Source: an uncultured Oscillospiraceae bacterium (GTDB lineage Bacteria; Bacillota; Clostridia; Oscillospirales; Oscillospiraceae). Taken from it: a stretch of 64,000 nt of DNA. The notes below the pieces were generated by a model, which had not been told where the DNA came from, did not search any database, and saw nothing but the letters and a program-made list of their open reading frames with translations. Position numbers and translations under genes: made by a program. This document shows, one piece after another, positions 17,781 through 51,152 of this stretch. The stretch's first letter is position 1. Every line of letters starts with the position of its first letter. The stretch is from positions 124,001 to 188,000 of the forward strand of contig CAMVRT010000001.1 in NCBI GenBank assembly GCA_947169975.1, written 5' to 3'.

Positions 17781-18092
17781 TGTGGTTACCCCCTTTTTCA
17801 TCATCAGCGCCGAAAAACGGCTCGCCGACGAGCAGCTCATGGCGAACCACTTTCCAAAGAATCGCTAAATTATTAAGTTATTATACTTGATACCGATGGA
17901 CAATTCAACACAAGCAACCATAATTAGTGAAAATACTCCATCAATATAGTTTATCTGCGAAACGTACGGAAATCTCACCGCAGGATTCCCCTCGACAGCC
18001 ATGATTGTCAGGCGGCAAAAAATGTGGTACACTGTTTTCGACAGGCATACCATGGGCTCCGGGGCATCAATCGCCCCACGGGGGTAAATAAG
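17781..18092. other. Divergent control region of the signalling operon and the Sel1 gene
   Basis: These 312 bases separate the minus-strand operon from the plus-strand Sel1 gene and should hold both promoters. The middle part (about 17870-17970) is AT-rich compared with its surroundings. I see no gene and no clear -35/-10 pair with 17-base spacing. Confidence 0.4.
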
Positions 18093-20057
18093 ATGGATGG
18101 AAATGTGAACGATTTACATAATGTGGAAAATTCGGACAACACGGGGGATCAGGTGGTGTTTTTCGACCCGGAGATGCTGAAGCTGGCCGACCAGCGGCGC
18201 CGCCTGGCGCAGGAGCGGCTGGACGAGTGCCGCCGCGCCGCCGAGAGCGGCGACGCCGGGGCGCAGGTGCAGATGGGATTGAACTGTCTGTTCGGTCTCA
18301 ACGGCACCCAGCGGGATCCGGACCGGGCCTTTGCATGGCTGAGCCGGACAGATACGGACGATCCGGTGGGGCGCTACTGGCTGGCTGTATGCTATGACAA
18401 CGGCATCGGTACGGCTCAGGACAGCGGCAAGGCGTTTGCCCTGTTCCGGCAGGCGGCCGAGGCGGGCTATCCCCCCGCCCTGTGCGATCTGGGCGTGTGT
18501 TACGAGAACGGACAGGGCACCGAAAGGGATATGGACAAGGCCGTGGCCCTCTACAAGGAGTCGGCACGGCGGGGCTATCCCATGGGGCAGTGCAATCTGG
18601 GCACGCTCTACTACTTCGGCGCTGGCGTGCCGCGCCATCACGGCAGGGCCGCCCTTCTCTTTGCCAGGGCTGCGGAGCAGCGGCTGCCCCGGGCGCAGAC
18701 ATTTCTCGGTATGTGCTGCGAGTTCGGGCACGGCGTGCCTCAGGATCTGCGAAAGGCCTTTCTGCTGTATCAGGAGGCCGCGCGGCAGGGTTATCCCGAC
18801 GGAATGTGCTCGCTGGGCGTGCTGTATTACTGCGGAAAGGGCGTAACGAGGGACGGAAAGGCAGCCTTCAACCTGTTCCGTCAGGCAGCGGAGGCTGGTT
18901 TGCCCCGGGCGCAGTTCTTCCTCGGAAAATGCTTTGACACCGGCGTGGGCACCGTGGAGAGCGCCTATGACGCCTTCCGCTGCTATGAGCAGGCCGCAAG
19001 ATCCGGACATCCGGATGCCTTGTTCCAGCTTGGCCTTTGCTGCGTCTGCGGACGCGGAACGCCACCGGACGCCGAGCGCGGCGCCGACTGCTTCCGAAAG
19101 GCCGCCGAGGCCGGAAGCTCCCGGGCTATGGCCCATCTGGGCGTTTGCTACGAGGCGGGCAAGGGCGTGCCGCGGGATCTGGAGCAGGCGGTGACATGGT
19201 ACCGGAGAGCAGCAGAGCGGAACGGTGCAGAGGGGCTTTGCAATCTGGGCGTACTGTACCGCGGCGGCATCGGTGTGACGCAGGACGACGGGAAGGCCGT
19301 GGACTGCTTCCGCAAAGCCGCGCAGCAGGGATTCCTGCGAGCCGTGTTCTTCCTCGGCCTGCACTACGAGGCCGGCAGAGGCGTGCCCCGGGATCCGAAA
19401 AAGGCCGCCGCCCTTTACCGGCAGGCAGCCGAGGGACGGTTCCCCTCCGGACAGCGTGCGCTGGGCGTGTGCTATGAAAACGGCATTGGCGTGGAGAAGG
19501 ATCTCCCCCGGGCGGCCTCCCTCTATGAGCTGGCCTCCCGGCAGGGGGACGTCATCGCCCGGTTCTTCCTGGCCAACCTGCTCTTTACCGGCCGGGGCGT
19601 AAACCGCGATCTGACGCAGGCTGCGCGGCTCTACCGTCTGGCCGCCGATCAGGGGCATCCCGGGGCACAGTGTCAGTACGGCTTCTGCTGTGAGCGGGGG
19701 CTGGGTGTGAGCAAGGATCTGTCCGCCGCCGTTGCCTACTACGAAAAGGCAGCGCAGCAGGGAGAGCGGGCTGCCTGCAACAACCTGGGCTATCTCTGCG
19801 AGAAGGGCCTGGGCTGCACAAAGGATCCCGCCAGGGCCGCGGTGTGGTACCAAAAGGCCAGCGATCTGGGTCTGCCCTTGGCCAGCTTCCATCTGGCCGC
19901 TCTCTACGAAAACGGACTGGGCGTGAAGCGGGACCGGAAACGGGCTATGGCGCTGTATCAGCTGGCGGCCGACGGAGGCGTGGCGCCGGCGGCGGAGGCT
20001 CTGCAGCGAATGCAGGGCGGGCTGCTTTCCCGCGCAAAAAAGCATTTGAAACAGTGA
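18093..20057 (+). CDS. Sel1-repeat (TPR-like) protein
   Basis: The ATG at 18093 follows GGGGGT and gives 654 residues. After about 45 N-terminal residues the protein is a continuous array of about 16 Sel1 repeats of 36 residues. Each resembles AxxxLGxCYExGxGVxxDxxKAxxLYxxAAxxG (for example DLGVCYENGQGTERDMDKAV). The C-terminus is ALQRMQGGLLSRAKKHLKQ. Sel1 solenoids scaffold signalling complexes. There is no signal peptide, so it is cytoplasmic. It stands divergent to the kinase/PP2C/vWA operon and may assemble its components. A near-copy of its last 20 codons is found at 22373-22435. Confidence 0.9.
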   Translation: MDGNVNDLHNVENSDNTGDQVVFFDPEMLKLADQRRRLAQERLDECRRAAESGDAGAQVQMGLNCLFGLNGTQRDPDRAFAWLSRTDTDDPVGRYWLAVCYDNGIGTAQDSGKAFALFRQAAEAGYPPALCDLGVCYENGQGTERDMDKAVALYKESARRGYPMGQCNLGTLYYFGAGVPRHHGRAALLFARAAEQRLPRAQTFLGMCCEFGHGVPQDLRKAFLLYQEAARQGYPDGMCSLGVLYYCGKGVTRDGKAAFNLFRQAAEAGLPRAQFFLGKCFDTGVGTVESAYDAFRCYEQAARSGHPDALFQLGLCCVCGRGTPPDAERGADCFRKAAEAGSSRAMAHLGVCYEAGKGVPRDLEQAVTWYRRAAERNGAEGLCNLGVLYRGGIGVTQDDGKAVDCFRKAAQQGFLRAVFFLGLHYEAGRGVPRDPKKAAALYRQAAEGRFPSGQRALGVCYENGIGVEKDLPRAASLYELASRQGDVIARFFLANLLFTGRGVNRDLTQAARLYRLAADQGHPGAQCQYGFCCERGLGVSKDLSAAVAYYEKAAQQGERAACNNLGYLCEKGLGCTKDPARAAVWYQKASDLGLPLASFHLAALYENGLGVKRDRKRAMALYQLAADGGVAPAAEALQRMQGGLLSRAKKHLKQ

Positions 20058-20062
20058 AAAAG

Positions 20063-20086
20063 CGGTGTGACCCGGAGGTCACACCG
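20063..20086 (+). terminator. Terminator of the Sel1 gene
   Basis: A perfect 10-bp stem CGGTGTGACC/GGTCACACCG with a CGGA loop is followed by TTTTTATT. The same hairpin occurs again at 22438-22467 and 22632-22661. Confidence 0.9.
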
Positions 20087-20197
20087 TTTTTATTAAATGA
20101 GCGCCCAATCCCCCGCATCCGTTTGCAGGCCGCCTCGTCCCGTTTGCCGGGGTGTCTTCCCCGCCGAGAATAAACGGTCGAATTGTGGATAATTTGA

Positions 20198-20226: not shown

Positions 20227-20300
20227 ATAAAAGTTAATCGAGTATTCTCACGATTAAACGAGACCTGCCACACGGCAGAATGCAGAGGGACGAAGAGCGT

Positions 20301-21500
20301 ATGAAGCAATTGAATGTCGCAGACTACTCTTACTTCTTTCAGCAGGCGACGGATCTGTCGGACAAAGAAGCCCGCAGCTTTTTTCTGACGGGCGGCGATC
20401 TGCTTCCGCAAAACGAGCAGCCAGACCTGCGGGGTCATGGAGGCTCTCCCCGTCCTGACAACGCGAAGCACCCCGACGGAGGGGAAATCTCCGCTTCGCC
20501 CGCCGTCTACAGCCCCGCAGGCGGTTTTAAGCCCGCCGGCGGCTTTCGTCCGGCCGGGGGCTTCCGGCCAGGCGGGGACGCCGGGCTGTCTGCGTCCGGG
20601 GATCACGGCAAGAGCTCCCCGTCTTCCGGCAGCGCCGACGGACATGCCCCCACTCCGCCTCCGCGTCCCAAAATCGAGACGCCCGAGGAGGTCGCCATGC
20701 GCGTCAACATCCGGAGTCAAACCGTCCAGATGGGGAGAAAGACTCTGCTGAAGGACGTGAACTTTCAGGTCTCGCGCGGCGACTTCATGCTGATCCTGGG
20801 GGGCTCCGGCGCGGGAAAAACCACGCTGATCCGCTCCATTCTCGGCGAAACCAAGGCGGACGGCTCCATTCAGCTCAACGGCAAAAACCTGTATACCAAC
20901 TTCAAGAGCATGAAGTCGCAAATCGGGCTGGTTCCGCAGTTCTTAACGCTGCGGCTCAACGATACCGTCCTCAGCACAGTCACCGACGCGGCCTATATCC
21001 GTCTGGGCGGCACATTCAGCTCCGCGGAGATCCGCCAGCGGGTGAACCGCGTACTGGATAAGGTGGGCATCACCGATCTGCAGGACAGTCTGATCTCCCA
21101 TTTGAGCGGCGGACAGAAAAAGAAGGTCTCCGTTGCGGTGCAGCTCGTCGGATTCCAGCAGGTTTTTATCTGCGACGAGCCGGACTCCGGTCTGGACGCG
21201 GCGTCCCGGGTGCAACTGATGGAGCTCTTGAAGGAGATCGCCCGCACCGGGAAGATCGTGATGGTCATTACGCACTATCCCGATGACGCCATCGAGCTGT
21301 TCTCCCGCGTCGTCGTCCTGGCAAAGAGCAGCACCGACAAGGCCGGACACCTGGCCTATACCGGCGACGTCGCCGGCGCGCTGCGAACCTTCCATGTGGA
21401 GCATCTGCAGGACATCGTGAAGGAGATCAATCCGCCGTACGAGGGCGGAAAGGGTCTGGCAGACGAATATATCAGACGTTGGAGCGTGACAAGGACATGA
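20301..21500 (+). CDS. ABC transporter ATPase with low-complexity N-terminal extension
   Basis: I prefer the ATG at 20301 (GAGGGA upstream), giving 399 residues; the ATG at 20280 has no ribosome site. The first about 30 residues are helical (KQLNVADYSYFFQQATDLS). A Gly/Pro/Ser-rich segment follows, with short repeats of AGGFRP. The ATPase domain starts near residue 135: Walker A GGSGAGKTT, Q-loop VPQFLTLRL, signature LSGGQKKK, Walker B VFICDEPDSGLDAASR, switch His ITHYPDD. The LSGGQKKK and the long helical insert recall ABCG-type ATPases. It overlaps the permease gene by four bases. Confidence 0.88.
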   Translation: MKQLNVADYSYFFQQATDLSDKEARSFFLTGGDLLPQNEQPDLRGHGGSPRPDNAKHPDGGEISASPAVYSPAGGFKPAGGFRPAGGFRPGGDAGLSASGDHGKSSPSSGSADGHAPTPPPRPKIETPEEVAMRVNIRSQTVQMGRKTLLKDVNFQVSRGDFMLILGGSGAGKTTLIRSILGETKADGSIQLNGKNLYTNFKSMKSQIGLVPQFLTLRLNDTVLSTVTDAAYIRLGGTFSSAEIRQRVNRVLDKVGITDLQDSLISHLSGGQKKKVSVAVQLVGFQQVFICDEPDSGLDAASRVQLMELLKEIARTGKIVMVITHYPDDAIELFSRVVVLAKSSTDKAGHLAYTGDVAGALRTFHVEHLQDIVKEINPPYEGGKGLADEYIRRWSVTRT

Positions 21501-22336
21501 CAGAGGCCGGTTTCTTTCAGCAGGTTTTCATCCTGTTCAACAAAACGGTGCGAATCGCCTGGCGCGAACGCTTCTACAAATCCATCGCCTTTTCTGCCAT
21601 CATCGCCGTGTTGGTCATGGCAGTCGTCGGCGGAGATATGCTGGAGGGCTACGGTGAGACGAGGTCCGGCTTCTTCACGCTGGCATCGGCGTGCATCTGG
21701 ATCGGCATTTTCAACACCATCCAGAGCATCTGCAAGGAGCATGAGATCATCCACGCCGATACACGCAACGGCATGATGCTCTCCGCCTTCGTCACAGCCA
21801 ATGTGATGTGGCAGTTCATCGTCTGCATCCTGGAGGCCGCCGTGATCTACGGCATCAGCGCCGTCTTCGTGTCATACAACACCGACTCGCTGATTTTCGA
21901 CAGCACGGCCGCCGAGTATTTCCTGACCATCTTCCTGCTGCTGTTCGGCTCCGCCTGTCTGGGAATGCTGATCTCCGCCGTGGCAAACAACGGAACCGTT
22001 GCCATGACCATCATGCCGTTCGTTTTGATCCTGCAGCTCATCATGTGCGGCGTTCTGTTTAAGCTGGAAGGGGTCATGGACGTCATCTCCTACATCACCT
22101 TCAGCAAGTGGGGCATGTCCGCCTTTGGCGCGATCTCCGATATGAACGGTCTCATTGACCCGCCGCCCGGGGATCTTGCGACAGAGTTTGGGCAGATACG
22201 CTCCCCTTTTGAGCCCATCGAAGCCTATGATCACACCCCGGAGACACTTCTGACCGCATGGATCTGGCTCGTTGCTGTTACGTTGGGCTGCGCGCTGCTC
22301 ACCACCCTTACCCTGAAGCTGCGCAACCGCGAATAG
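21497..22336 (+). CDS. ABC-2 type transporter permease
   Basis: The ATG at 21497 overlaps the ATPase stop (ATGA), so the two are translationally coupled. The 279 residues hold about six membrane helices with the ABC-2 pattern: an N-terminal amphipathic helix (VRIAWRERFYKS), FNTIQSICKEHEIIHADTRNGM between helices 2 and 3, and a C-terminal helix pair with a loop of about 60 residues. With the ATPase it would form an exporter for lipids, glycans or drugs. Its closeness to the Sel1 gene suggests a link to the signalling island. Confidence 0.88.
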   Translation: MTEAGFFQQVFILFNKTVRIAWRERFYKSIAFSAIIAVLVMAVVGGDMLEGYGETRSGFFTLASACIWIGIFNTIQSICKEHEIIHADTRNGMMLSAFVTANVMWQFIVCILEAAVIYGISAVFVSYNTDSLIFDSTAAEYFLTIFLLLFGSACLGMLISAVANNGTVAMTIMPFVLILQLIMCGVLFKLEGVMDVISYITFSKWGMSAFGAISDMNGLIDPPPGDLATEFGQIRSPFEPIEAYDHTPETLLTAWIWLVAVTLGCALLTTLTLKLRNRE

Positions 22337-22354
22337 GCGAAAGCGGGCAAAAGG

Positions 22355-22435
22355 CTGCCGGTCGGTTCGGAGATGGCTCTGCAGCGGATGCAGGGCGGAC
22401 TGCTGTCCCGCGCAAAAAAACATTTGAAGCAGTGA
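22355..22435 (+). pseudogene. Remnant of a Sel1-protein C-terminus
   Basis: In frame, 22373-22435 encodes MALQRMQGGLLSRAKKHLKQ and a stop, the same as residues 636-654 of the Sel1 protein apart from the first residue. The preceding codons (LPVGSE) resemble the AAE context there. DNA identity continues through the stop into the terminator hairpin. No Sel1 repeats remain upstream, so this is the tail of a lost paralogue, or a duplicated 3' end now serving the permease gene as terminator. Confidence 0.8.
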
Positions 22436-22437
22436 AA

Positions 22438-22467
22438 AAGCGGTGTGACCCGGAGGTCACACCGCTT
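22438..22467 (+). terminator. Terminator hairpin copy left of family 2 repeat
   Basis: These 30 bases are identical to 22632-22661. The stem GCGGTGTGACC/GGTCACACCGC is the terminator expected after the permease and Sel1 remnant. The repeat element begins immediately after it. Confidence 0.85.
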
Positions 22468-22631
22468 CAGTGTGTCGACAAAGTGTCGACACACTGAAGC
22501 GGTAAATTCAGAAACATTGAAAAATGTTTCTGAATATGCATGGATTTCACGTGAAGGGGGACTCCCATCCCCCTTCACAATCCCCCATGCGTGTCGTTGC
22601 CTTTCGTCATATACCCTTTGTCTTCAGTTTG
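22468..22631 (+). repeat. Structured repeat, family 2, copy C, nested in a terminator
   Basis: These 164 bases align over their full length with the reverse complement of 42301-42470. Elements in order: a long hairpin around TGTGTCGACA-AAG-TGTCGACACA (22470-22492); a 12-bp hairpin ATTCAGAAACAT/ATGTTTCTGAAT (22506-22534 region); a stem GTGAAGGGGG/CCCCCTTCAC (22551-22578); an enclosing GCATGG/CCATGC pair; and an end hairpin CTTCA/TGAAG touching the right terminator copy. It has no reading frame. Both flanks carry the same 30-bp terminator sequence. Confidence 0.85.
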
Positions 22632-22661
22632 AAGCGGTGTGACCCGGAGGTCACACCGCTT
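22632..22661. terminator. Terminator hairpin copy right of family 2 repeat
   Basis: This is an exact 30-bp duplicate of 22438-22467, here followed by TTTTG. It lies 15 bases from the convergent HtrA stop and may serve both strands. Confidence 0.85.
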
Positions 22662-22676
22662 TTGTATGATTTGGGA

Positions 22677-24077
22677 TCAGTTGCCCCAGCCGGGGCCGTA
22701 GAAATAGTCGAAGTAGTCCTCCCAGCCGTCAGGGTACTGGGATCCGCCCCAGGGGTAGGACGGCTGCTGCGGCTGCTGCTCCTCCTGGCCGGTGGTGTCG
22801 GGCTGGGCGTCGAAGGTCAGGGGGAGGGTGATATACTCGCCGTCGCGGTAGACGGTGAGCGTCACCGTGTCGCCGGCGCGGTAGCCCTTCTTGACCGCAG
22901 CCAGTTCCTCCATGGAAGTGATCTTCGTGTCATTGATCTTTGTGATCACATCGCCCATTTTCAGGCCGGCCTTTTCACCGGCGCCGCCGGGCACGGTGGA
23001 GAAAACGAACACACCCTTTGTGACGTCGATGCGGTACTGGGCACCCATGGACTCAGTCATGGTGCCGGCAGTGATGGCCATGTATGCCTTGTTGGTCACC
23101 TGTCCGTTCTCCATAATGTCGGTGATGATGGTCTGCACATCGTCCATGGGAATGGCGAAGCCCAGGCCTTCCACCGTGGTGGTGGAGTAGGAGGAGTACT
23201 TGGCGGACACAATGCCCACCACCTCGCCGTACAGGTTCACCAGCGGGCCGCCGGAGTTGCCGGGGTTGATGGAGGCGTCCACCTGGATCATGTTGAAGGG
23301 CGTGCCGTCCACGTTGATGGCACGGTCGCAGCAGGAGACGATGCCCTGGCTCATGGAGAAGGTCAGCTCACCCAGGGGGTTGCCGATGGACAGCACCGTG
23401 TCGCCCACGTTCAGATCGGTGCTGGAGCCCAGGGTAACAGCCTGAAGGCCCGACGCCTTGATCTTCAGCACGGCCACGTCATAGTCGCTGTCGCCGCCCA
23501 CCACCTGGGCATCGTAGGTCTCGCCGCTGTACAGGGTCACCTGAACGGAGGTGGCTCCCTTCACCACGTGGTGATTGGTGACGATATAGCCGTCAGAGGT
23601 GATGATAAAGCCGCTGCCGGCGCTGGCGCTTTCCACCGGCTGGCCAAACACATTGGTGGAGCGGGTGGTGCTGTTGATGGACACCACGGAGTTCACCGCC
23701 GAGGCATAGACCTCCGCGGGGGTCATGAGAGTGTTGCCGTCCACGCGCTTGACCACCACATCTACCGCGCCGCGGCTGCTCTGGCGCACATTGGTGACGG
23801 ACTCATCCTCATCGCTGTCGCTGCGGGCGGCCAGCGCAGCGCCGCCGTAGCCGCACAGTCCGGCCACCACAGCCACCGTCAGCAGCAGAGCCGCTACCTT
23901 TGTGCCGGTGCGGCGGAAAAAGCTCTTCTTCCGGACCGGCGCAGGAGCGTGATACACCGGTGCAGTATAGGCAACGGTCTCCGGCGTGCTCCGGGCCGGT
24001 TCGCCGGCAGACGGCGCCGTATTGGTAAAGCGGTCGCCGCTCTCCGTATAGCCGTATCCGTATTCTTCACTCGTCAT
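22677..24077 (-). CDS. htrA: HtrA/DegP-type membrane serine protease
   Basis: The protein has 466 residues and a strong AAGGAGG ribosome site. A cytoplasmic N-terminus of about 58 residues precedes one membrane helix (59-83) and an extracellular trypsin-like domain with catalytic His170 (TNHHVV), Asp200 (SDYDVAVLK) and Ser275 (NPGNSGGPL). One PDZ domain (about 340-425, VPGGAGEKAGLKMGDVI) follows, then a Gln/Pro/Tyr/Trp-rich tail. It degrades or refolds damaged proteins outside the membrane. It is monocistronic and convergent with the ABC exporter. Confidence 0.95.
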   Translation of the reverse strand: MTSEEYGYGYTESGDRFTNTAPSAGEPARSTPETVAYTAPVYHAPAPVRKKSFFRRTGTKVAALLLTVAVVAGLCGYGGAALAARSDSDEDESVTNVRQSSRGAVDVVVKRVDGNTLMTPAEVYASAVNSVVSINSTTRSTNVFGQPVESASAGSGFIITSDGYIVTNHHVVKGATSVQVTLYSGETYDAQVVGGDSDYDVAVLKIKASGLQAVTLGSSTDLNVGDTVLSIGNPLGELTFSMSQGIVSCCDRAINVDGTPFNMIQVDASINPGNSGGPLVNLYGEVVGIVSAKYSSYSTTTVEGLGFAIPMDDVQTIITDIMENGQVTNKAYMAITAGTMTESMGAQYRIDVTKGVFVFSTVPGGAGEKAGLKMGDVITKINDTKITSMEELAAVKKGYRAGDTVTLTVYRDGEYITLPLTFDAQPDTTGQEEQQPQQPSYPWGGSQYPDGWEDYFDYFYGPGWGN

Positions 24078-24251
24078 AAAAAATGACCTCCTTCTTTCCT
24101 TGCGGTTTTTCTTGTAGGCCGCCGTGTCTTATGATATCATATAGGCATGGCATCCGCCATCTGTTTCTGTGTTCTATCATAGGCAGAAATCTTAAAATAA
24201 TCTTTAATCTTCGTCGGTAATTGTTAACATTTTTGAAACGAGGTGTGCTCC

Positions 24252-42263: not shown

Positions 42264-42300
42264 GAATCCCGCCTTGCCGGTCTGTCCGGCAGGGCGGGAT
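42264..42300 (-). terminator. Terminator hairpin copy left of family 2 repeat (distal for the ATPase gene)
   Basis: These 37 bases are identical to 42471-42507. The stem ATCCCGCC/GGCGGGAT encloses TGCCGG/CCGGCA. On the minus strand it is followed by CCCTTGCTTTTCTCC, the more terminator-like tail of the two copies. Confidence 0.8.
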
Positions 42301-42470
42301 TCCTGTAAACTGCAGGCGAAGGCTATTGCAGAAAGGGTACGACACGCATGGGGGATTGTGAAGGGGGAGGGGACTCCCCCTTCACGTGAAATCCATACAA
42401 ATTCAGGAACATCTTTCCATGTTTCTGAATTTGCCTGTCCGTGCGTCGACACTTTGTCGACACACGGATA
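42301..42470 (-). repeat. Structured repeat, family 2, copy D, nested in a terminator
   Basis: Read on the minus strand these 170 bases align with 22468-22631 from end to end. Nearly identical blocks include GTGTGTCGACAAAGTGTCGA, AAATTCAGAAACAT, TGGATTTCACGTGAAGGGGG and CCCCCATGCGTGTCGT. Stem changes are compensatory: TCCGTG/CGCACGGA here, TCAGTG/CACTGA there. It lies between the P-type ATPase and CcdA genes, oriented with the ATPase transcript, as copy C is oriented with its upstream gene. Confidence 0.85.
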
Positions 42471-42507
42471 GAATCCCGCCTTGCCGGTCTGTCCGGCAGG
42501 GCGGGAT
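42471..42507 (-). terminator. Terminator hairpin copy right of family 2 repeat (proximal to the ATPase gene)
   Basis: An exact 37-bp duplicate of 42264-42300, starting 22 bases after the ATPase stop on the minus strand. Confidence 0.8.
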
Positions 42508-42529
42508 CCCTCCTCTTTTCCTGTATGGC

Positions 42530-51060: not shown

Positions 51061-51149
51061 TTTTCACGTGCGCACAGCGAACAATTCACGTGCGCAGCAC
51101 ATTTCACACGCCGCAGGCGTATTTCGCTTGCCCGCAAGGGAAAATTTCG
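51061..51149. repeat. Array of mini-hairpins with conserved ATTTCAC linker
   Basis: On the plus strand a linker (TTTTCAC, AATTCAC, ATTTCAC, ATTTCGC; GTGAAAT-type on the minus strand) alternates with different short palindromes: GTGCGC-ACA-GCGAAC, GTGC-GCA-GCAC (51090-51100), ACGCC-GCA-GGCGT (51108-51120), CCC-GCAA-GGG (51131-51140). The linker is conserved while the stems change but still pair. The array lies between the tRNA-Gly terminator and the tRNA-Cys promoter and encodes no protein. Confidence 0.7.
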
Positions 51150-51152
51150 TTG

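Follow-up and report, generated by a model that had tools for sequence, protein, structure and literature searches.

Two identical 30-mers, each a complete terminator hairpin, flank a short non-coding stretch in the 64,000-nucleotide window of Oscillospiraceae DNA that was analyzed here (the window being all of these 64,000 nucleotides). This arrangement raises the question of what lies between the two hairpins and how a whole terminator came to stand on both sides of it. The original prediction, made from the letters of the window, was of a non-autonomous element that inserts at terminators and duplicates the full hairpin, perhaps a mobile RNA or DNA of a new, terminator-nesting class. Our analysis indicates that the terminator-duplicating MITE is real and well supported; it is not a new class. 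The kind of target was already known, and the outcome is a variant. The evidence comprises the ends of the element, its copy number, the duplication of whole hairpins, empty sites with a single hairpin, and the same habit in transposase-bearing IS1182 elements.

A short element between two copies of one terminator

The features of the locus are collected in Table 1. T1 and T2 of copy 1 were confirmed to be identical and each to form a complete hairpin, with a perfect 13-bp stem and a 4-nt loop. The 164 bp between them had been described as rich in hairpins and devoid of a reading frame, and this description agrees with the RNA folding of the 224-nt stretch at 22438-22661 (z = -13.8) and with the ORF list, in which no ORF of at least 80 aa was confined to copy 1. 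Two listed ORFs begin within the copy and exit it (22231-22578, minus strand; 22524-24086, plus strand). The ends of the element are short, imperfect inverted repeats of 16-17 bp that resemble IS1182 transposon ends by eye. With its length of 164 bp, its multicopy occurrence, its imperfect terminal inverted repeats (TIRs, compared by eye), its lack of a confined ORF of at least 80 aa, and a target-site duplication matched by a single-copy empty site, copy 1 has the properties of a MITE.

Table 1. Coordinates of the element copies, their flanking hairpins and neighboring genes in the window, and loci of a second MITE family.
Feature	Position	Strand	Remark
Sel1-repeat gene	18024..20057	+	
Paralogous empty site with a single hairpin, after the Sel1-repeat gene	20058..20091	+	2.4 kb from copy 1
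T1, host terminator hairpin on the left of copy 1	22438..22467	+	identical to T2
Element copy 1 (MITE), first bases CAG, last bases TTG	22468..22631	+	multicopy repeat in own genome
Left TIR CAGTGTGTCGACAAAG	22468..22483	+	compared by eye with right end and IS1182 ends
Left-end hairpin (TIR and its own inverted copy)	22468..22496	+	
X, 7 bases AAGCGGT	22497..22503	+	equals first 7 bases of host terminator; complementary to end of T1
Internal hairpin 2	22506..22535	+	
Internal hairpin 3 (GTGAAGGGGGA / TCCCCCTTCAC)	22551..22578	+	
Right TIR CTTTGTCTTCAGTTTG	22616..22631	+	
T2, host terminator hairpin on the right of copy 1, TTGTATGA directly outside	22632..22661	+	identical to T1
Trypsin-like/PDZ (HtrA-type) protease gene, flanking copy 1	22677..24077	-	
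T2 of copy 2	42264..42302	-	
Element copy 2	42303..42470	-	
T1 of copy 2	42471..42509	-	
Second MITE family loci	L294:5368-5646, L303:13254-13487, L272:1786-2087, L183:2455-2724		

Copy 2 is bracketed by a different hairpin, as had been noticed, but the length given for this repeat (37 bp) was too short: it measured 41 bp (42264-42304 and 42471-42511), with 98% identity. Both copies were also said to have the same orientation to the upstream gene, which is formally true but says little because copy 1 sits between convergent genes. No Rfam family was detected over the element by gathering search, the element had no match in phage records, and neither a transposase relative nor an exact element core was found in viral contigs. 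The only non-tRNA Rfam match of the window was a Gut-1 RNA (RF01706) at 51078-51152 on the minus strand, within a tRNA gene cluster.

Hairpin duplication and empty sites

When the own genome was searched by BLAST with the element, 23 matching segments were returned, which were resolved with their flanks into 13 copies and one left-end fragment. An insertion of about 110 bp is nested in two own-genome copies; three copies, L018, L020 and L265, share one such insertion inside internal hairpin 3, where it ends ...GCGGCGCTTCGCTGATTTC. Element matches were present in 8 of 40 genomes: the own genome, six of the 24 further members of the genus, and G039, which belongs to another family. G040 and G046 were added as element-bearing genomes by an additional search. 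The match in G039 was limited to the left-end hairpin, and this genome carries a different element (L035, L028, L042) that has a palindromised left end of the same style and at L035 is also bracketed, by eye, by a repeated hairpin. When the left-end hairpin pattern was searched with at most one mismatch, only the own genome and G003, of the same genus, gave a match among 394 genomes sampled from the order. By eye, several copies of the G003, G022, G024 and G046 group share flanks across species (e.g., L024/L029/L037, L031/L043 and L066/L067) and are therefore old.

Left and right flanks were compared for the 38 copies with both ends readable, with all mismatched left/right pairs as control (similarity score 10.0 at the 99th percentile, 13.0 at maximum). 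By this approach, the true flank pairs of window copies 1 and 2 scored 30.0 and 38.5, so far above the mismatched pairs that their hairpin duplication is not due to chance. The 99th percentile was exceeded by 19 of the 38 copies, with L017, L063 and L065 remaining below the control maximum. Among the 12 copies scored from the own genome, 10 exceeded it and C13b and C12 did not; the left flank of C12 is another repeat. The flanking hairpins of the 13th copy, C17, match by eye, which brings the own genome to 11 of 13 copies with matching hairpins on both sides. The hairpin differs from site to site, and the flanks thus derive from the host site, as proposed. A further 13 loci from G040 and G046 were retrieved, and their scores were judged against the control of the 38-copy set. 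Six of eight G040 copies scored at least 25, and a seventh, L265, matches by eye across its nested insertion (7/8); in L264 the duplicated stretch appears to cover two hairpins. A matching right hairpin was found in none of the four G046 copies scored (L270, which is without a left end, was left out).

The prediction had been staked on the duplication being present in most copies. This was so in the own genome and in G040, but the figure over the 38 copies was half, and in the G003, G022, G024 and G046 group the left hairpin is usually present and a matching right one absent from most copies. The missing right hairpins may reflect decay of the hairpin copy without an outer U-tract. At least four A (left) or T (right) among the eight outer bases were counted on at least one side in 20 of 22 identical-hairpin pairs (raw count). 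Copies L070, L078, L024, L029, L037 and others are old, apparently cross-species copies in which the left hairpin has no counterpart on the right.

Duplicated terminator hairpins also bracket members of a second MITE family, the ends of which (TGTCAAAAAA) are IS1182-like. A scan for repeated hairpins found this family twice in 464 kb from the own genome and once in 187 kb from G040; the scan overlooked T1 of copy 1, probably through its preference for a longer overlapping hairpin. One pair in L310 is unexplained, and an array of CATTGCGAGG-type repeats between two near-identical hairpins at L286:11390-11750 is a separate repeat family.

Empty sites for copy 1 were surveyed in 29 other-genome loci downstream of the protease gene. 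In G045 and G007, the orthologous gene end has one hairpin with the same 13-bp stem as copy 1 and a different loop. In 11 of these loci the protease gene and a Sel1-repeat gene converge; a hairpin lies within 60 nt of the stop codon in nine of these and not in the other two, and two copies of one hairpin were seen in none of the 11. Empty sites with two tandem hairpins, the outcome named as contrary to the original prediction, were thus not encountered in these convergent loci. The window itself holds a paralogous empty site, as the tail of the Sel1-repeat gene and its terminator are repeated (19997-20089 and 22375-22467; 93 bp, 87/93 identical): the first member has one hairpin, and in the second the homology stops exactly at the element junction. 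This 93-bp repeat surrounds two ABC-transporter genes (20280-22336), for which no match was detected in the 29 other-genome protease loci (about 1.5 kb on each side).

At the 29 other-genome loci corresponding to copy 2, neither the element nor its stem was found, and some hairpin starts within 40 nt of the stop codon in 15. For copies C16a and C16b, no sequence-matched empty site was found among eight other loci; on the C16a side a single hairpin is present in L230 and L234 and, 97 nt further on, in L231, and the comparison showed two unrelated hairpins in L232 and none in four other loci. At the protease gene that flanks copy 1, G046 has a member of the second MITE family, bracketed by a 32-bp hairpin that is present twice there and once, as an identical 32-mer, in G022 and G024. 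Taken together, the duplicated hairpins in the own genome and the single-hairpin empty sites bear out the proposal of a non-autonomous mobile element at terminators with duplication of the full hairpin.

Probable relationship to IS1182 transposons

The own genome encodes a transposase, P0001, with a score of 397 bits against NF033551 (cut-off 270) and with domains PF05598 and PF13751. The end of the P0001 element (TCAGCTTGTCAAAG) adjoins a hairpin and differs from the MITE ends. A scan of 84,980 genomes yielded 86 relatives, for which 80 loci were obtained; their titles name mostly Oscillospiraceae, Ruminococcaceae and other Clostridia, many as gut or rumen MAGs. Of these loci 41 were examined, 10 being without a scorable end pair and 31 being scored. 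The same whole hairpin was present at both ends in 14 of the 31 scored loci, with ends reading CAGNYTGTCAAA or CAGACTGTCGAAAAAC, and was unmatched in 17. A hairpin abutted both ends in 23/31 and at least one end in 30/31, counts that lean upward since the end pair was picked for maximal hairpin score. For mismatched pairs of IS1182 loci the score was 11.0 at the 99th percentile and 34.0 at maximum, the maximum coming from L115/L119, which have a hairpin in common. In AP018533.1 the hairpin on the right of L115 is identical to the one on the left of L119, suggesting that IS1182 copies have recombined with each other.

The ends closest to those of the MITE were found in a few of these loci. Compared by eye, and for one end only, the left end of L129 (TCAGCCTGTAGACAAAGG) agrees at 17 of 18 bases with the right end seen in C12 and some other copies (TCAGACTGTAGACAAAGG); the right end of window copy 1 is a poorer match to the L129 end than that of C12. 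L129 has a shortened transposase match, of 458 residues over 1020 bases, and two hairpins that are unlike each other. L132 has the order IS1182 end, hairpin, MITE relative, same hairpin, again with a shortened transposase match, and the ends of L094 and L101 are similar to the MITE ends. None of the loci examined contained a complete element that combined a transposase with both MITE ends. A search for the transposase domains gave matches in 5 of 32 genus genomes, including the own genome; the MITE-bearing G022, G024, G019 and G040 were not among them, and copy number therefore does not track a transposase, as the original prediction had suggested checking. These being draft assemblies, transposase repeats may have been lost there.

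The suggestion of a new class did not hold up: both the ends of the element and its relatives with a transposase indicate a family of DDE transposons that is already known, IS1182. Palindromic targets have already been described for this family in the available parts of two reports (PMC4923244, PMC5678879), and the element shares the palindromic target reported for some IS1182 members.

Judged from sequence comparison, the element is most probably an IS1182-family MITE that is mobilised in trans and whose target duplication spans the entire hairpin. An IS1182-type transposase acting in trans, the particular enzyme being our supposition, would bind the short ends of the element and recognise the palindromic terminator, which has probably been extruded into a hairpin or cruciform structure. 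Both 3' ends of the element would then be joined at the 5' foot of the hairpin, one per strand; with this presumed geometry the stagger would equal the whole hairpin, and gap filling would leave a full hairpin on each side of the element. The outer T/A tracts would remain outside the insertion, so that a transcript from either side would still run into a hairpin and the tract beyond it, and insertion probably leaves termination intact. A terminator insertion that copies the terminator would thus be a likely harmless niche for a transposon, with both neighbors probably still terminated. The same type of element could instead be moved by another DDE family with similar ends, and the absence of an exact autonomous partner from the loci examined is consistent with this; we consider it improbable, as the closest ends beside transposase sequence were those of IS1182, in a comparison that covered IS1182 loci.

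X bases, inverted loops and related systems

The bases just after the left hairpin, termed X, tend to be the same as those with which the host terminator starts. In 46 records the mean X match was 4.70 bases compared to 1.06 when shuffled, with 4.70 reached in 0/5000 shuffles; this mean is inflated by records that are orthologous and by a hairpin boundary set too far inward in several. In a permutation test, for which X and flank strings were read by eye and the left-flank and right-flank definitions of the terminator start were kept apart, own X compared with own left flank outperformed the X of other copies in the own genome (13 copies; 0/5000 permutations in each of three scorings) and in G040 (8 copies; p 0.003-0.07). 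The fit of own X to the right flank was poorer (p 0.003-0.006 for 12 copies of the own genome; p 0.05-0.18 for G040). In addition, the loop is inverted in one hairpin of the pair in MITE copies C14, C5b and, less clearly, C15, and in IS elements L094 and L107.

These two patterns might each arise by template switching at hairpins, during gap repair or in later replication. According to the available text of two studies, template switching between the arms of inverted repeats homogenises the arms and inverts the spacer (PMC8604942; PMC8794818). We regard it as the best explanation of the X match and inverted loops, with no new enzyme needed; it is favored over a guide function of X because X fits the adjacent left hairpin more closely.

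Such a guide function can be drawn by analogy with the IS200/IS605 elements, which use guide sequences: X might pair with a terminator arm and steer insertion to terminators with the same first bases. X is AGAGGC in five of eight G040 copies, and three of these (L259, L260 and L261) lie in unrelated terminators that start with AGAGGC, a start found in the background in 0/48 G040 terminator ends, 2/224 from the own genome and 2/130 genus-locus hairpins; this pattern was spotted post hoc at few sites. Two of these three AGAGGC sites have a left junction shifted by one base, which contiguous copying would not give. Across six scorings, hit terminators matched the X of other copies above background (p 0.000-0.002 in G040; 0.002-0.122 in the own genome), a contrast probably overstated by the background start having been averaged over three offsets. 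Against the guide stand the far better fit of own X than of other copies' X to its left flank (0/5000 in the own genome), the better fit to the left than to the right flank, as predicted by copying from the adjacent hairpin, and the different X carried by own-genome copies with near-identical cores. We thus judge guidance by X to be unlikely, and a DDE element with a reprogrammable target, in which X would be a DNA guide rewritten from the target by hairpin template switching, to be quite unlikely. The X match to the host terminator and the inverted loops look new; if template switching is their source, the process at transposon-host hairpins is visible in genome sequence, and the X pattern raises a testable question of guided targeting.

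A hairpin adjoining one end and a target tied to hairpins could also be explained by a single-strand (HUH/Y1) element, of IS200/IS605 or REP type, that uses a terminal hairpin. HUH/Y1-type elements are not known to make a target duplication, whereas whole hairpins are duplicated around 11 of the 13 own-genome copies, and the terminal inverted repeats resemble the DDE-type ends of IS1182; this origin is highly improbable. Equally hard to credit is a structured 3'-UTR RNA or terminator cluster that never moved and acquired its hairpins via local duplication or gene conversion: folding is strong and several copies look orthologous in G003, G022 and G024 by their common flanks (by eye), so that the sequence may have been kept there, but one core occupies many unrelated sites with site-specific flanks and has single-hairpin empty sites. 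Domestication of old copies is possible.

The preferred reading, an IS1182-family MITE, sets the element beside the IS1182 insertion sequences (NF033551) found in Clostridia, Oscillospiraceae among them (e.g., L090-L110, and copies in AP018533.1), which likewise have short CAG..TGT ends beside hairpins and, in 14 of the 31 scored loci, an identical whole hairpin at both ends. By contrast, these encode a transposase and have no palindromised left end, and the internal hairpins of the element were not seen in the IS1182 ends compared. ISfinder gives long, variable direct repeats for IS1182, and parts of the present findings may already be known there. Group IIC introns also insert beside terminators; they differ from the element in being RNA-based, with a ribozyme fold and no hairpin duplication.

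The BOX, RUP, SPRITE and ERIC MITEs resemble the element in being short, non-coding, intergenic and strongly folding, but duplication of a complete host terminator is not described for them in the available text of a review (PMC10969869), in the main text of which IS1182 is not mentioned. The literature search, which covered its sources in part, returned no description of an IS1182 MITE in terminators or of a demonstrated whole-hairpin duplication, and both MITE families appear undescribed within the literature searched.

The closest described systems are IS1272 and TnSha1 of staphylococci, members of the IS1182 family, which according to the available parts of the reports target hairpins, including confirmed terminators, without sequence consensus (PMC5678879, PMC4923244). 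These delete or replace the hairpin and make no target duplication, whereas at the sites studied here the target hairpin is duplicated instead of removed. In the part of PMC5678879 available, a pathway b is outlined whereby the entire stem-loop may become duplicated if the ends are joined at its 5' foot, and the elements described here fit this pathway. They thus provide many natural examples, some with empty sites, of the whole-hairpin target duplication that was proposed there as possible.
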